Shown here: piece by piece, positions 5,558 to 29,509 of the stretch
Numbering within the stretch: position 1 is the stretch's first letter
Layout: every line of letters begins with the position of its first letter
The notes under the pieces: generated by a model
Database searches by the model: none
The model's input: the letters and a program-made list of their open reading frames with translations, nothing else
What the model was told of the DNA's origin: nothing
Position numbers and translations under genes: made by a program
DNA from: a virus
Virus record (IMG/VR): IMGVR_UViG_3300006802_000371
Span: 1-29,509 of that record
DNA: 29,509 nt
Reading direction: 5' to 3' (one strand)

Positions 5558-6295
5558 ATGCTGGTGAAAGTCGGTGACACGACTGCGGATGTGAGGGTTG
5601 AGGCAGTCATGTCGATGCCTCGTCTTGGATTTAATGACAACTGGTTTGGATGGTGCCAGGCATTGATGCCGCTTGGCATTCGTCCAACAAAGGTCACAGG
5701 TGCCTTTTGGGGTGCCTGCCTGCAAAGGGTTTTTGAGAGCTTTGTAGACGAGTGCGAGTACCTGCTGACTATTGACTATGACACGTTTTTCACAAAGGCA
5801 GATGTTGAGCACTTGCTGACGCTGGCAATGACGTTCCAGTGCGATGCAGTGACTGGCTTGCAGACAAAGCGGGAAGATGGCAGGCCGATGCTGACGCTAA
5901 AAGGAACGCTTGAAAGCCCGCCAGAAAGTGGCGTGATTGAGGTGCCAAAAGACTGGTTTTCTGCGCCCGTCCAAGAGGTAGACACAGCTCACTTTGGCTG
6001 CACTGTCATCAGCACGGCAGCGCTTAAACGAACGCCAAAACCTTGGTTTCAAGGAGTCCCAAACGAGCAAGGGGAATGGGGTGACGGAAGAACTGACGAC
6101 GACATCTTTTTTTGGAAACAGTTCAAGAAGGCAGGGAACCGCTTGTACGTCACGCCTCGCGTGATTCTTGGGCATGGTGAATACATGGTGACTTGGCCCG
6201 GCGAAAACCTTGGAAAGCCTGTCCATCAACACGCAACGCATTTCGTCACGACAAACAAGGCGCCGGAAGGTGTCTGGAAGGTAGGAGGGCCATGA
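5558..6295 (+). CDS. Glycosyltransferase-like protein (GT-A fold)
   Basis: Predicted glycosyltransferase (245 aa) that would move a sugar from a nucleotide-sugar to an unknown acceptor. The clues are a metal-binding DxD-type motif in LLTIDYDTFF (residues ~70), an acceptor-side GRTDDDIFFWKQ segment (~185), and a late His (ILGHGEY). ATG 5558 has GGAGG (5547-5551) 6 nt upstream, within the end of the terminator T tract. It sits between the capsid and connector genes, where it is not needed for assembly. Glycosylation of the capsid, or of the host surface to block superinfection, is inference. The exact GT family is not resolved. Confidence 0.7.
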   Translation: MLVKVGDTTADVRVEAVMSMPRLGFNDNWFGWCQALMPLGIRPTKVTGAFWGACLQRVFESFVDECEYLLTIDYDTFFTKADVEHLLTLAMTFQCDAVTGLQTKREDGRPMLTLKGTLESPPESGVIEVPKDWFSAPVQEVDTAHFGCTVISTAALKRTPKPWFQGVPNEQGEWGDGRTDDDIFFWKQFKKAGNRLYVTPRVILGHGEYMVTWPGENLGKPVHQHATHFVTTNKAPEGVWKVGGP

Positions 6296-22466: not shown

Positions 22467-22716
22467 CGCCTGCATGAAGCGGGCCTGGTCTGACGACGTT
22501 GACGACGCGAGCCGCAAGCTGCTTGAGGCAGCAGCGAAGCGCATTCGCTCGCTGCACACGCGGACGATATCGCTCGCTCACAGCCTGGAGCTAGAGGAGG
22601 CTGTCTGCCAAGAGGCACTGCAAGAGCGGGACGACATGGTGTACGCGGTGCGAATGTGCCGCCAGAAGACAGAAGCAAATGAAGGACCGAAGGACACTCA
22701 CGGAGAGGGGATGTGA
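22432..22716 (+). CDS. Helical protein (94 aa), unknown function
   Basis: ATG 22432 with GGAGG about 6 nt upstream; it overlaps the LexA-like gene by 35 bp. The protein is nearly all helical (RELFDACMKRAWSDDVDDASRKLLEAAAKRIRSLHTRTISLAHSLELEEAV). There is no recognisable motif. It sits just before the sliding-clamp gene and overlaps its start (TGATG), so it may take part in replication or its control. Confidence 0.55.
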   Translation: MNKRPSNRELFDACMKRAWSDDVDDASRKLLEAAAKRIRSLHTRTISLAHSLELEEAVCQEALQERDDMVYAVRMCRQKTEANEGPKDTHGEGM

Positions 22717-23807
22717 TGGCTACTGCTACTGCAACGACGGTGAGGGTTGATGCGACTGAGCTGAGAAGAGCTTTGGCGATCTGTAAAAGGGTGGTGCCAA
22801 ACCACACGCCAAAGCCAGTGCTGCGAAACGTCCTGTTGTCTGGCAATGTGATGACGGCAACTGACAGCGAGGTCAAAGTTGACGTAGAGATCGGCTACGA
22901 AGGCGAGCCGATTCTGCTGCCTCACGACAAGCTTTCGGCAATCGTTGCAGCAAGCGACTCGCCAGTGGTTTCGCTGACGATTGACGGCAACAACCGCTGC
23001 CGCGTCACTGCTGGGCGTGGAAAGTGGATGCTGCCAACTGAAGACCCTGCCGAGTTTCCCGCGTGGGACGTGGAGGCTGAACGTCCCGTTGCAAGGGTTC
23101 CTGCGGATCAGTTCACTCGCGCAGTCAGCGGGACGGTGTTCGCGTGCGATTCGGAATCAAGTCGGTACGCTCTTGGTGCAGTGCTTGTGGGTGTTACCGA
23201 TGGCGACCTTGTGTTGGTGGCAACTGACGGTCGCCGCCTGGTTGATTTTAAGTGTGAGACAGAGCAGGCGGTTGATGACGGCGAGTGGTTGGTGCCGTCT
23301 CGCGTGATGCACCTTCTTCGTGGTGTCGCAGGTTCGGACACCGGCAGCGTTCAGCTTGAAGCAACGCAAGACGAGATTCTTGCCAGCATTGGTGACGTGC
23401 GAGTGACCGCAAGGCTCATCAATGGCGCATTCCCAGCGTGGCGGGACGTGATGCCGAAGCGGCAGGTAGAGCGGACTTTGGTGCGGGCCGCTGACATTCT
23501 CTCGGCTGTGCGACAGGCTGGAGTTGTGGCAAGCGAAAACAGCAAAGGCGTTGACTTTTCCTTTGGGCCAAGCGGCATCGGCCTGCAAGCCAAAAGTCCT
23601 GAGCACGGCGAGTCATTTGTGCAGTGCGACGTAGAGAAGGCTGGCACGGAATGCACGGCACGGCTGGACCCGTCCTTCGTGGTTCAATGGCTCAACACTG
23701 TTGACGGTGCCGAGATCGTTGAAGTTGACGCAAAGGACAACCAAAGCGCCGTCGTTTTTCACGCTGAAGAAACGCGATATGTCGTCATGCCAATGGCCCT
23801 TGACTGA
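22716..23807 (+). CDS. dnaN: DNA polymerase III beta sliding clamp (phage-encoded)
   Basis: 363-aa beta clamp, essentially full length. The three topologically similar domains are visible: VRVDATELRRALAICKRVVP...TATDSEVKVDVEI (~1-115), FTRAVSGTVFACDSESSRYALGAVLVGVTDGDLVLVATDGRRLVDFK (~130-240) and AADILSAVRQAGVVASENSKGVDFSF...PSFVVQWLN...ETRYVVMPMALD (~250-363), with a family-typical C-terminal P-M-x-L. ATG 22716 follows GAGAGGGG. Neighbours on both sides are phage-type and co-directional, so it is not a stray host gene. No polymerase is encoded, so it must work with the host replicase. Confidence 0.93.
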   Translation: MATATATTVRVDATELRRALAICKRVVPNHTPKPVLRNVLLSGNVMTATDSEVKVDVEIGYEGEPILLPHDKLSAIVAASDSPVVSLTIDGNNRCRVTAGRGKWMLPTEDPAEFPAWDVEAERPVARVPADQFTRAVSGTVFACDSESSRYALGAVLVGVTDGDLVLVATDGRRLVDFKCETEQAVDDGEWLVPSRVMHLLRGVAGSDTGSVQLEATQDEILASIGDVRVTARLINGAFPAWRDVMPKRQVERTLVRAADILSAVRQAGVVASENSKGVDFSFGPSGIGLQAKSPEHGESFVQCDVEKAGTECTARLDPSFVVQWLNTVDGAEIVEVDAKDNQSAVVFHAEETRYVVMPMALD

Positions 23808-26283: not shown

Positions 26284-26538
26284 ATGACCCTTTTTGAAAA
26301 AATCCGTCTTCTTGCTGAATGGTCGCCAATCATTTCCTTCCTGCAACGGTTTGCAGAGGAAAGCGACATTCACGCGAAAGCCCTCATTGTCAGTGACGCG
26401 GCTGAGTGGCTCGCAAGCCGCACAGATTTGGAATGGGATGACGAGCTTGTGGATCACATCGCAGACATTCTCCGCAGCGATGAAGGCGAAGCCCTCGTCC
26501 GCTGGGTGATGTCGCAGCTTGAGGTGCAGAGTGACTGA
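26284..26538 (+). CDS. Small acidic helical protein (84 aa), unknown function
   Basis: ATG 26284 with GGAGG (26271-26275) 8 nt upstream; an in-frame ATG 27 nt earlier is less likely. The protein is helical and acidic (LFEKIRLLAEWSPIISFLQRFAEESD...LEWDDELVDHIADILRS). No signal peptide or clear membrane helix is present. It opens the tightly overlapping cassette of small membrane proteins, and could be a regulator or antiholin-like partner; that is a guess from position. Confidence 0.55.
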   Translation: MTLFEKIRLLAEWSPIISFLQRFAEESDIHAKALIVSDAAEWLASRTDLEWDDELVDHIADILRSDEGEALVRWVMSQLEVQSD

Positions 26539-26809
26539 CCCTGTGAAGATTCTCGCTGCGGTTGCTGCCGTTTCGTTGTTTGTGGCGCCGTACATCCCAG
26601 CCGCGTTCTCGCGGCTTTCGGCGTTTGTGCAGTCCTTGCGTGTTCCCTCGCTGCCATCGGCGGCACCGTCAGGAATCGGCGTTGATGACATGACCACGGT
26701 GCTGCATCTCGCAAACAAGCTGCGACTTGAGGGAAATGCAGAGGCTGTTGCGCTCTGCCAGAAACTGCTTGATTCCATGCTTGGCTACACGCCTGGAGGC
26801 AAGAAGTGA
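26531..26809 (+). CDS. Small membrane protein, holin candidate
   Basis: 92-aa protein with an N-terminal hydrophobic helix (VKILAAVAAVSLFVAPYIPAAF, ~residues 5-25) and a helical cytoplasmic or periplasmic domain (DDMTTVLHLANKLRLEGNAEAVALCQKLLDSML). GTG 26531 overlaps the upstream stop by 8 bp, and the stop overlaps the next GTG. One membrane helix, small size and position two genes before the peptidase fit a holin or membrane-anchored lysis protein, but single-helix holins are hard to prove by sequence. Confidence 0.5.
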   Translation: MTDPVKILAAVAAVSLFVAPYIPAAFSRLSAFVQSLRVPSLPSAAPSGIGVDDMTTVLHLANKLRLEGNAEAVALCQKLLDSMLGYTPGGKK

Positions 26810-27297
26810 CTGGGCGCAATCTCATCGCTTTGGCTTGTCTGTACGTTGCTTTCAGCGGGTTGCCGTCTGGACTGAGCCTGCCTATCCCATCACTGCCGTC
26901 ACCTGGCGGCACGGACATTGAGGTGCCAACGGTGCGTCTGCGTGAGGCTGTCGCTGGCGTTGCGAAAGTGGCCCAGAACATGAGCGGCTTTGACCGTCAG
27001 GTCTGGATGGCGACTTGGAAGGAAGCAGCACGGCTCGTCGATGGCGAGCGACTGGATGGCTCAGCAATAACGTTTCACGACACCATCGGTCTGCGTGCCT
27101 ATACGGGGATCGTCTTAGACATTGCGTGGAAGCGACTCGCGAACGCTTCCGGCAAATACGATGGGCTGGCTGACGCTGTTGAAGAGGCATTCGCGGACAC
27201 CATCGGCAACGATGTGAAACCGTTTGACGAGGCGACCAAGCGGCAGACGGTTGAGCTGTTTAAGGCTCTTGCGTGGGCTGGGGCACGAGGAGAGTAG
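26806..27297 (+). CDS. Exported or membrane-anchored protein (163 aa), unknown function
   Basis: GTG start overlapping the previous stop. Residues ~4-25 are hydrophobic (NLIALACLYVAFSGLPSGL) and could be a signal peptide or anchor, followed by a Pro-rich linker (SLPIPSLPSPGG) and a helical domain (TVRLREAVAGVAKVAQNMSGFDRQVWMATWKEAARLVDGE). It is between a membrane protein and the papain-like peptidase, so it may be part of the lysis or cell-envelope module. No family recognised. Confidence 0.6.
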   Translation: MTGRNLIALACLYVAFSGLPSGLSLPIPSLPSPGGTDIEVPTVRLREAVAGVAKVAQNMSGFDRQVWMATWKEAARLVDGERLDGSAITFHDTIGLRAYTGIVLDIAWKRLANASGKYDGLADAVEEAFADTIGNDVKPFDEATKRQTVELFKALAWAGARGE

Positions 27298-27301
27298 CGA
27301 C

Positions 27302-28216
27302 GTGCAAGACCAGCTTTTCGGCTATGTGCCGGACACGCCAGCAAATGAGGCTTTCATCGCCTCACTTCCGTTCCCAACGCTTGCAGCGGCTGGGCCTAGC
27401 CTCGTTCTGGACGACAAGCGAGAGGTGTTTCTGTATGAGTCCCTCATCAAGGCGATGCCAGAGTGGAAGCGTGGCGCGCAGGGGATAGGCAGTTGCGTTG
27501 GCTGGGGTTGGTCGCTTGCTGTTGACCTTCTTGCTGCAACTGAAGTCATGCTCAAGCGGGAGCCGGAATCATTTGGAGGCAGGACGCTTGAGGCGAGCGT
27601 TTACGCTTTCAGCCGCGTTGAGGCTCGCGGGCGCTCGCGTGCAGGAATGTCAGACGGCTCATACGGTGGCGCTGCTGCCAAGGCTGTGAAGGACTGGGGG
27701 ACGCTGCATTACGGGCGCGACTACAAAGGCGAGCGGTTTGACTCTTACTCTGCCCAGCGAGAAAAGACGTGGGGCAATACTGGAGTCCCTGACAACCTTG
27801 AGCCATTTGCTAAAGAGCACCGCGTCGGTGAAGTGACGCTCGTTGACTCCTTTGACGCAGCAGCCAAAGCAATCCAGAACGGCTACCCCGTCGCGGTTTG
27901 TTCCGGCCAAGGTTTCACAATGAAGCGTGACAGCCAGGGCTTTTGCTCGCCTCGCGGGAGCTGGGCGCACTGCATGTGCCTTGCCGGTGTCCGCTGGGAT
28001 CGCCCCGGCCTGCTGTGCATCAACTCTTGGGGCAATAGCAACTCAGGGCCGCACTATCCGCAGACGATGCCTTCAAGCGTGCAAGCGTGCTCTTTCTGGA
28101 TTGATGCCCGCACGGTGGACGGAATGTTGCGAGGAAGAGACTCCTACGCACTCAGCAGCTACGAAGGGTTCCCGCCAAGGAGAATAGAACGATGGTTCCC
28201 AGATGGCTTGCTTTGA
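27302..28216 (+). CDS. Papain-like (C1-type) cysteine peptidase
   Basis: 304-aa peptidase. The active site is complete: QGIGSCVGWGWS with Cys65 and an oxyanion-type Gln60, WAHCMCLAGV with His223, and CINSWGNSNSG with Asn241; the order Q, C, H, N-S-W-G is the papain hallmark. There is no signal peptide on GTG 27302 (GAGGAGAG 7 nt upstream), which would fit release through a holin. It sits within a run of small membrane/exported proteins and a lipoprotein. An endolysin-like role on a protein-rich cell envelope is my inference; a virion or immunity role is an alternative. Confidence 0.8.
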   Translation: MQDQLFGYVPDTPANEAFIASLPFPTLAAAGPSLVLDDKREVFLYESLIKAMPEWKRGAQGIGSCVGWGWSLAVDLLAATEVMLKREPESFGGRTLEASVYAFSRVEARGRSRAGMSDGSYGGAAAKAVKDWGTLHYGRDYKGERFDSYSAQREKTWGNTGVPDNLEPFAKEHRVGEVTLVDSFDAAAKAIQNGYPVAVCSGQGFTMKRDSQGFCSPRGSWAHCMCLAGVRWDRPGLLCINSWGNSNSGPHYPQTMPSSVQACSFWIDARTVDGMLRGRDSYALSSYEGFPPRRIERWFPDGLL

Positions 28217-28641
28217 CGGCATTGCTTGTGCTGCCTGGTTGCCAGACAGCTCAAAGCGTTGACCGTGCAGGCATCATCTCAGAGCTTTCCGTGAGAGTCG
28301 CGGCCTTGCTTTTCTCGCAAGGTGGTGAGCCTCTGCCTACACCTGCGCCCAAAGAAGGTTGCGAGGTGGACTGTCGCTGCGATGGGACTGGAGAGGAGAA
28401 GAGCGGAGACGGGCTGGCTGTTGTCTCTTGCCGCTGTGAGGACTCCTGCAAATGCAAGAAGGAAAAGCAGGGACTAGACGCGCCGCCAGTGGAAGAGCCT
28501 CCGCTCGTCCCAATCCCTCAGCCTGAGCCAAAGCCTGCGTCGCAGCCCGTCGTGATTCGGACAGTCCCGCAAGTCATGTGCGAAGGCGGCGCCTGCTTTG
28601 CCCCGCCGCAACGTCAACGCGGAGGGCTATTCAGACGATGA
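28192..28641 (+). CDS. Pro/Cys-rich lipoprotein
   Basis: 149-aa lipoprotein: signal MVPRWLALTALLVLPGC with lipobox LPGC (Cys17). The mature protein has Cys clusters (CEVDCRCDG, CRCEDSCKCKK), then a Pro-rich stretch (PPVEEPPLVPIPQPEPKP) and CEGGACF before a basic end. AAGGAG 7 nt upstream of ATG 28192. It overlaps the peptidase by 25 bp. A Pro-rich outer-membrane lipoprotein beside a lysis gene recalls Rz1-type o-spanins, although it is longer and Cys-rich. Confidence 0.75.
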   Translation: MVPRWLALTALLVLPGCQTAQSVDRAGIISELSVRVAALLFSQGGEPLPTPAPKEGCEVDCRCDGTGEEKSGDGLAVVSCRCEDSCKCKKEKQGLDAPPVEEPPLVPIPQPEPKPASQPVVIRTVPQVMCEGGACFAPPQRQRGGLFRR

Positions 28642-28964
28642 CGCGAGAGGAAGTCTACGCATCGCTTTGGCAGAAGCTGCCAGCATCAAAGCACCTCATC
28701 GGCAGACGAGGCGTCAGGCGAGTTGCTGACAACATCGTTAAGCGATGGGAACCGCTGTCGATGTCGATGCAGAAGGCACGCGAGCAAAAGATCGTGCGAG
28801 ACAACCTTTCCGAGATAGTCGCCAAAGACACATACGGCTCAATAATGCTCATGCTGTTCATCGGCCTGGTGTCCGCAGCAGTGCAAGCGCTTTTGGAATG
28901 GTGGCTCCTGAGCGAAGAGGGACGCCGGATGTTTTCTCACTGGAAACAGGAGCTGCGCGGATGA
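28638..28964 (+). CDS. Single-helix membrane protein, i-spanin/holin candidate
   Basis: 108-aa protein. A basic N-terminal region (ASKHLIGRRGVRRVADNIVKRW) is followed by helical MSMQKAREQKIVRDNLSEIV and one membrane helix near residue 70-95 (SIMLMLFIGLVSAAVQALLEWWLL). The start overlaps the lipoprotein stop (ATGA). Placement next to the lipoprotein is what one would expect for the partner of an o-spanin, but orientation and topology are not typical, so holin or DUF-type membrane protein is equally possible. Confidence 0.55.
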   Translation: MTREEVYASLWQKLPASKHLIGRRGVRRVADNIVKRWEPLSMSMQKAREQKIVRDNLSEIVAKDTYGSIMLMLFIGLVSAAVQALLEWWLLSEEGRRMFSHWKQELRG

Positions 28965-29224
28965 GCGGTGTTGAGGCAATCGACTGGGCTAAAACGATTA
29001 TTGAGCGTTGGGGCTTCCCTGTGCTGATGGCGCTCGCGTTTGGCTGGACTCTTCGCGCCGACGTGCTTCTGCCGTTGGTTGACGCACACACTACGTTTTT
29101 GCATGAGATCACAGAAACGCAAAGAGAGATCGTAGAGACGACGCGCGAGCAGACGCGACTCCTGTATGCGATGCAACCAAAGACGGCGGCATACGGTTTA
29201 CACGACGACACGCCGCAGAACTAG
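28961..29224 (+). CDS. Membrane protein with coiled-coil tail, holin/spanin candidate
   Basis: 87-aa protein with one membrane helix (FPVLMALAFGWTLRADVLLPLV, ~residues 19-40) and a coiled-coil-like helix (TTFLHEITETQREIVETTREQTRLLYAM). ATG 28961 overlaps the previous stop. A membrane anchor plus periplasmic coiled coil is the i-spanin pattern (Rz-like), so this is the better spanin candidate of the two. Not confirmed by any family match. Confidence 0.6.
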   Translation: MSGVEAIDWAKTIIERWGFPVLMALAFGWTLRADVLLPLVDAHTTFLHEITETQREIVETTREQTRLLYAMQPKTAAYGLHDDTPQN

Positions 29225-29258: not shown

Positions 29259-29509
29259 ATGAGTCCGATGAACAACCGCCTTTTGGTGCCGCAGAAACTC
29301 CCGCTTCTGCTGGACTACGCGGGTGGTGCCGCCGCAGCCTACAGCCTGCGGTCTTTGAGCAACTCCTACGTTGGTCCCGTCGTCACGGTGCGCCGCAGCA
29401 CGGACAACGCGGAGCAGGGGTTCACCAGCACCGAAGTAAGCGACGGCACATTGGCCGCGTGGTGCGGGGGTGGGGATGGTTTCGTCAAAACGTGGCATGA
29501 CCAGTCGCA
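29259..29509 (+). CDS. Tail fibre / receptor-binding protein, N-terminal part (cut by window end)
   Basis: Open reading frame from ATG 29259 running off the right end (83 codons visible). The text MNNRLLVPQKLPLLLDYAGGAAAAYSLRSL...YVGPVVTVRRSTDNAEQGFTST, then WCGGGDGFVKTWHDQS matches a carbohydrate-recognition-type N-terminal domain often found in phage tail fibres (the A-A-Y-S-L-R ... R-R-S-x-D-N-x-x-x-x-F and W-x-D-Q-S blocks). It lies downstream of the lysis cassette, well apart from the other tail genes. The 34-bp gap before it holds only a weak 5-bp AGCCT/AGGCT repeat. Confidence 0.75.
   Translation, partial: MSPMNNRLLVPQKLPLLLDYAGGAAAAYSLRSLSNSYVGPVVTVRRSTDNAEQGFTSTEVSDGTLAAWCGGGDGFVKTWHDQS

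Follow-up and report, generated by a model that had tools for sequence, protein, structure and literature searches.

Lysis cassettes of Gram-negative phages, such as the S-R-Rz-Rz1 genes of lambda and the cassettes of phages with signal-arrest-release (SAR) endolysins (e.g., P1), are compact groups of overlapping genes that specify small membrane proteins, an envelope lipoprotein and an enzyme that may or may not have an export signal of its own. The endolysins described so far target peptidoglycan or pseudomurein. Protein-degrading lysis is only hypothetical in one review, which states that S-layer-degrading enzymes are not known (PMC4456609), and neither papain-type enzymes nor planctomycetes are mentioned in a survey of viral lytic proteins from 2025 (PMC12596118). 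Both sources also refer to PeiW and PeiP of Methanothermobacter viruses (peptidase family C71), two cysteine peptidases that serve these viruses as endolysins against a non-murein wall (PMC12596118, PMC4456609). Here, we describe seven same-strand genes, PRE-A-B-PEP-LIPO-M1-M2, at the right end (26284–29224; Table 1) of the IMG/VR contig IMGVR_UViG_3300006802_000371; the window that we analysed is this whole contig of 29,509 bases. The gene block has the general layout of a Gram-negative lysis cassette, with a papain-like cysteine protease (PEP) in the place of the peptidoglycan hydrolase. Judging from sequence comparisons, it probably serves lysis by proteolysis, with a protein substrate, in a temperate siphovirus of planctomycetes.

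The chassis of the contig is that of an ordinary siphophage (terminase, portal, S78 prohead protease, capsid, tail genes, integrase, sliding clamp and RusA), and its portal has matches in 1,691 described phage records. The successive spacings in the block are −8, −4, +4, −25, −4 and −4 bp, with the largest overlap, 25 bp, at the 3′ end of the PEP gene. A first-pass annotation, made from the sequence alone, had the open reading frames and their overlaps right: the coordinates of A to M2 were reproduced, and PRE, which overlaps A, is an additional, seventh gene.

PEP matches no Pfam family at E ≤ 1 (the Peptidase_C1 profile included), no PHROG and, by sequence search, no PDB sequence, and neither PEP nor B has a match in 50,697 phage records; relatives were therefore sought in IMG/VR and in genomes. 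Since the Peptidase_C1 profile is missed, we name the protein papain-like and do not place it in that Pfam family. The AlphaFold model of PEP, built on an alignment of 41 sequences (mean predicted local distance difference test score, pLDDT, 91.7), finds its best PDB match in the bacterial protease xylellain, itself papain-like (238 residues aligned at 3.0 Å with Z 21.8; Foldseek E 3e-11), followed by procathepsins (Z 17–19) and papain; no C71-type structures are among the chains listed. Xylellain and the other members of the cathepsin/papain family (C1A) share with PEP the fold and the catalytic Gln-Cys-His-Asn, but they are cellular proteases, with an identity to PEP of at most 19% in the structural alignments. 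The papain fold is also shared by Cwp84 of Clostridioides difficile (Z 16.7), which acts on cell-surface protein; it is a host enzyme for S-layer maturation and not for phage lysis.

In the PEP-family alignment (mean column identity of 37%), Gln60, Cys65 and His223 do not vary among the 41 sequences, 39 of which also have Asn241. Cys65, His223 and Asn241 had already been read as an intact catalytic set, which the alignment confirms; Gln60 is a fourth catalytic residue, absent from the first-pass annotation. The same Cys and His motifs are visible by eye in distant homologues in the phages G032, G033 and G041 (E 1e-24 to 1e-31). According to the model, PEP is a papain-like peptidase of the C1A fold, and the pattern of conservation across its homologues is that of an active protease. 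A hydropathy scan gives no membrane segment in PEP, and the earlier description of the enzyme as signal-less holds for the clade of the contig, which has no export signal. It does not hold for most relatives, which have an N-terminal export segment: a well-supported sister clade of 28 peptidases has a hydrophobic N-terminus, and homologues bear anchor, Sec-like or lipoprotein-like N-termini. The split between the two clades parallels that between SAR or exported endolysins and holin-dependent ones.

No conventional endolysin was found beside the peptidase. Pfam scans of the 47 other genes of the contig yielded 28 families, and the 25 that were listed include no peptidoglycan hydrolase. In six-frame searches, for which control genomes were positive, neither Amidase_2 nor Phage_lysozyme was detected in 38 related contigs, and neither SLT nor M23 in 31. 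The set searched includes four contigs (G008, G019, G022 and G029) with direct terminal repeats of 102–127 bases, as in circular assemblies; for most genes of G008 and G029, Pfam scans yielded 32 families, and the 25 listed are likewise free of peptidoglycan hydrolases. The absence of a lysozyme, amidase or transglycosylase from the window, as first noticed, thus stands, and the conventional endolysin that might have been encoded elsewhere in the genome was found in none of the related contigs, circular genomes included, for the four families searched.

At least 288 IMG/VR contigs carry a PEP relative. The order B–peptidase–Cys-rich lipoprotein is common to divergent phages. These genes move together, and the block occurs in three genomic settings: before the terminase, between the late genes and the integrase, and between the prohead protease and the capsid. 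In most contigs the cassette is co-directional with the late genes and near them, and amongst the relatives of the contig it is near-universal. Genes were called by a simple script, so that neighbour counts are approximate: a B-type gene lies immediately 5′ of the peptidase gene in 116 of 137 loci (the contig studied and others), and the gene order, which the first-pass annotation had proposed to look for in other phages, is therefore conserved beyond chance. Where loci were found via B alone, a peptidase was called in 79 out of 80; the 80th is a gene-calling artefact, as are the seemingly peptidase-free loci L266 and L281, where an out-of-frame open reading frame was called over that place. 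Predicted membrane proteins make up 65–82% of the genes at positions −2 to +2 of the peptidase, 11–19% at −3 and +3, and 10% elsewhere.

Profile comparison (hhalign) shows B to be homologous to c1 (P 95%), LIPO to c4 (P 96%) and M1 to c9 (P 91%) of a distant lineage, which argues for one cassette and not for local assortment; LIPO is also homologous to family 22 (P 94%). The same method gave no homology for PRE with c5, for M2 with c3 or for A with a 105-amino-acid (aa) membrane protein of Blastopirellula marina. Two contigs that lack the cassette (G031 and G034) were discarded as evidence, as they start in a glycosyltransferase-like gene at the place where the cassette is expected.

The product of LIPO distinguishes the block further from the holin-endolysin-spanin cassettes of Gram-negative phages, as members of its family have Cys-cluster or thioredoxin modules. 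One of the genes scanned in G008 and G029 matches the DnaJ CXXCXGXG domain (Pfam PF00684); its sequence identifies it as the LIPO homologue of G008. CxxCxGxG motifs occur 3′ of 73 out of 109 peptidase genes, and thioredoxin-like motifs 3′ of 8. In the B. marina prophage and its relatives, the protein encoded in the LIPO slot resembles thioredoxin (Pfam E 5.5e-7 and 1.6e-7) and has a hydrophobic segment at its N-terminus. By Pfam, thioredoxin is matched at the LIPO position in the loci L083 (the B. marina prophage), L437 and L439; LIPO of the contig has the Cys cluster only. In L439, lipobox, Cys cluster and thioredoxin are fused in one protein (Pfam E 2e-6), and the same fusion can be read from the sequence of L443. 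Thioredoxin in the LIPO position of several planctomycete prophages, twice fused to the Cys-rich module, indicates that the protease travels with thiol-disulfide chemistry, to which the DnaJ-type match and the fusions together tie the Cys-rich LIPO of the contig. By sequence, LIPO resembles a partner in thiol-redox chemistry more than it does a spanin, and the module probably has a reductive component. Of the features of a two-component spanin, the lipobox is present in LIPO, but M2, the coiled-coil protein, can lie apart from it; this and the thioredoxin of LIPO homologues leave the spanin-like reading of the first-pass annotation unsupported.

A, B, M1 and M2 match no Pfam or PHROG family. 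The first-pass annotation had taken A, M1 and M2 for membrane proteins and B for an exported protein; hydropathy gives a single segment in each of A, B and M1, while M2 is borderline (maximum 1.56, threshold 1.6). The PRE family comprises 17 loci, upstream of A/B every time in the clade of the contig, and PRE also stands 5′ of A-B-PEP in the distant phage G033. The A family counts six loci; in some relatives (e.g., L104), A was not called as a gene of its own, and B has an additional N-terminal hydrophobic stretch in the alignment. The AlphaFold model of B (pLDDT 88) has no match in the PDB, and a role as inhibitor or propeptide, which we considered, is unsupported. M1 has 21 homologues in place and comes after LIPO in G032 and G033. 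M2, with 23 homologues in place in the clade of the contig, is found in other phages beside fibre genes, with PRE-A-B-PEP-LIPO-M1 located elsewhere. For 31 of the 79 new M2 loci no peptidase was called nearby, and several of these genomes carry a distant peptidase cassette elsewhere. We have therefore dropped M2 from the core of the cassette, of which it had been listed as a component.

Some relatives have other proteins in or near these positions. In the sister lineage, the c2 family (L024, 5157–5384, and relatives) is a 75-aa multi-helix membrane protein encoded 3′ of the peptidase, weakly similar to Transgly_assoc (E 0.037) and a holin candidate. The distant relatives L441, L450, L074, L084 and L086 have lipoprotein- or Sec-type proteins in the B position, with Pro/Thr-rich linkers and, in L441, a PKD domain (Pfam, E 2.4e-4). 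In a variant cassette (L142, 7196–11070), the genes for a secreted, trypsin-like protease and a B-type protein are directly followed by those for a 657-aa peptidase and a thioredoxin-like protein.

Among 84,980 species genomes scanned, relatives turned up in Blastopirellula marina DSM 3645, Planctomycetales bacterium 10988 and two planctomycete metagenome-assembled genomes (MAGs), as well as in one further MAG and in a pair of short contigs from a single MAG that is labelled as Alphaproteobacteria. The latter two (L085 and L087; MAG LLD_269) are peptidase-bearing phage contigs that are probably misbinned, because all other named hosts are Planctomycetota. Cys-rich YTV proteins have been reported in planctomycete walls, and most Planctomycetales are without peptidoglycan genes (PMC8567305); in Planctopirus limnophila, most peptidoglycan genes are dispensable (PMC10632474). 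Among 392 Planctomycetota genomes, 15 encode the peptidase and 42 the Cys-rich YTV wall protein, which is present in 14 of the 15 peptidase-positive genomes (Fisher p = 4e-14, uncorrected for shared ancestry). MraY above the curated cut-off is missing in six of the 15 peptidase hosts, B. marina included, and present in all 14 comparison genomes. The suggestion that a protease would suit a host with a protein-rich envelope is thus in keeping with the occurrence of relatives in Planctomycetota that encode such wall proteins, B. marina among them.

A private, membrane-rich cassette that moves as a block, an apparently active protease, the absence of a recognisable endolysin and hosts with Cys-rich protein walls are most simply accounted for by proteolytic lysis with the help of thiol chemistry. 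The comparisons support the original interpretation of the block as a lysis cassette; from them we infer lysis itself and its timing, as well as the protein substrate, the redox role and the identity of a holin. The papain-like protease, replacing a peptidoglycan hydrolase, would cleave a structural protein of the Cys-rich, protein-rich host wall. The predicted envelope lipoprotein, by its Cys cluster or thioredoxin, might reduce disulfide cross-links in the wall or keep the catalytic cysteine reduced, and A, B and M1 may make the inner membrane permeable or keep the enzyme in position. Without an export signal, the enzyme of the contig's clade would depend on a holin; that of the sister clade would rely on its own N-terminal signal or anchor. 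That the redox lipoprotein opens YTV-type disulfides and the papain-like endolysin digests the YTV proteins is a more specific and tentative proposal, to which we give slightly less than an even chance.

Several observations weigh against proteolytic lysis. In six contigs the cassette lies between the prohead protease and the capsid genes, which is unusual for lysis genes, and no gene is assignable to a known holin or spanin family. The association of the peptidase with YTV proteins is confounded by shared ancestry. Peptidoglycan-hydrolase families beyond the four are covered only by the Pfam scans of the genes of the contig and of most genes of G008 and G029. Moreover, several planctomycete species have lysozyme-sensitive peptidoglycan, with sacculi dissolved by lysozyme (PMC4432640), and MraY is present in nine of the 15 peptidase hosts; a protease alone may therefore not suffice there. 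The same two facts would suit a papain-like endolysin that cuts peptide bonds of peptidoglycan and not wall protein, in the manner of CHAP, NlpC/P60 and C39-like domains: such distant papain-fold domains are used by other endolysins, and some proteins annotated as phage lysins are among the lower-ranking matches of PEP in the viral fold search. We consider this unlikely, as the C1A fold of PEP shows the papain arrangement in full and is closest to xylellain and cathepsins, as six of the hosts have no clear MraY, and as the occurrence of the peptidase follows that of Cys-rich wall proteins.

Next in rank, and improbable in our view, is a role in the lysogen, in which the expressed module would modify the envelope or exclude superinfection: the protease would trim a surface receptor, and the membrane proteins would anchor the protease. 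The phages are temperate (integrase), many of the homologues are membrane-anchored or exported, and the genomic position of the cassette varies, all of which would fit; yet no other lysis enzyme, which a tailed phage always needs, was found in these genomes by the searches described above, the cassette is mostly co-directional with and close to late genes, and its near-universal presence amongst the relatives is unlike that of typical lysogenic conversion genes. A virion or morphogenesis protein, e.g., a tail protease for entry, is very improbable despite the six cassettes next to head genes and the fibre-like gene 3′ of the cassette in the clade of the contig, since a separate S78 prohead protease is encoded, anchor, Sec-like or lipoprotein-like N-termini are seldom seen on siphovirus virion proteins, and the constant neighbours are membrane proteins.

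If proteolytic lysis is the right reading, the block would, to our knowledge, be the first known protease-based lysis module. Its closest precedents are PeiW and PeiP, two pseudomurein endoisopeptidases from viruses of methanogens; they belong to another peptidase family and act on pseudomurein cross-links, and we know of no redox partner or conserved membrane cassette for them. In the open-licence papers searched, we found no described protease endolysin with a redox partner. Protein-wall lysis, if true, would be widespread in planctomycete phages, given the number of viral contigs with the peptidase, and absent from described phages. The enzyme chosen by the phage would then point to a disulfide-linked protein in the planctomycete wall, independent and testable evidence in the long-running dispute about what keeps that wall together, and PEP with its redox partner could become tools to open planctomycete cells.

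Table 1. Genes at the right end of the contig, with predicted properties of their products.
Gene	Position	Strand	Description
PRE	26284..26538	+	84-aa soluble protein; first cassette gene; no predicted membrane segment (hydropathy maximum 0.84)
A	26531..26809	+	92 aa; single N-terminal membrane helix (hydropathy 2.07); candidate holin component
B	26806..27297	+	163 aa; N-terminal membrane/signal helix, Pro-rich linker, all-helical globular domain
PEP	27302..28216	+	304-aa papain-like cysteine peptidase; GTG start; without export signal
LIPO	28192..28641	+	149-aa predicted lipoprotein; lipobox LVLPGC; Cys cluster, Pro-rich tail
M1	28638..28964	+	108 aa; basic N-terminal part, one membrane helix near the C-terminus (hydropathy 2.26)
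M2	28961..29224	+	87 aa; one probable membrane helix, coiled-coil tail
Next gene (start only)	29259..29507	+	truncated at the contig end

In relatives, the position of the truncated last gene is occupied by lectin- or fibre-like genes (e.g., Laminin_G_3 in G008). Outside the cassette, three small Cys-rich or secreted-looking open reading frames occur in the contig (13012–13272, 16509–16853 and 16871–17137). A glycosyltransferase-like gene (5609–6295) is situated inside the head module, between the capsid and connector genes, and similar genes are extant at the same place in G008 and G034. The contig also encodes a DNA polymerase III sliding clamp (22716–23807) with three DNA_pol3_beta domains (Pfam). 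In G034, the large terminase (L419, 44399–46996; 865 aa) contains an apparent intein (sequence ALNTPLLTTDGWKTMGSVKVGDQVFHPSGRPVGV).

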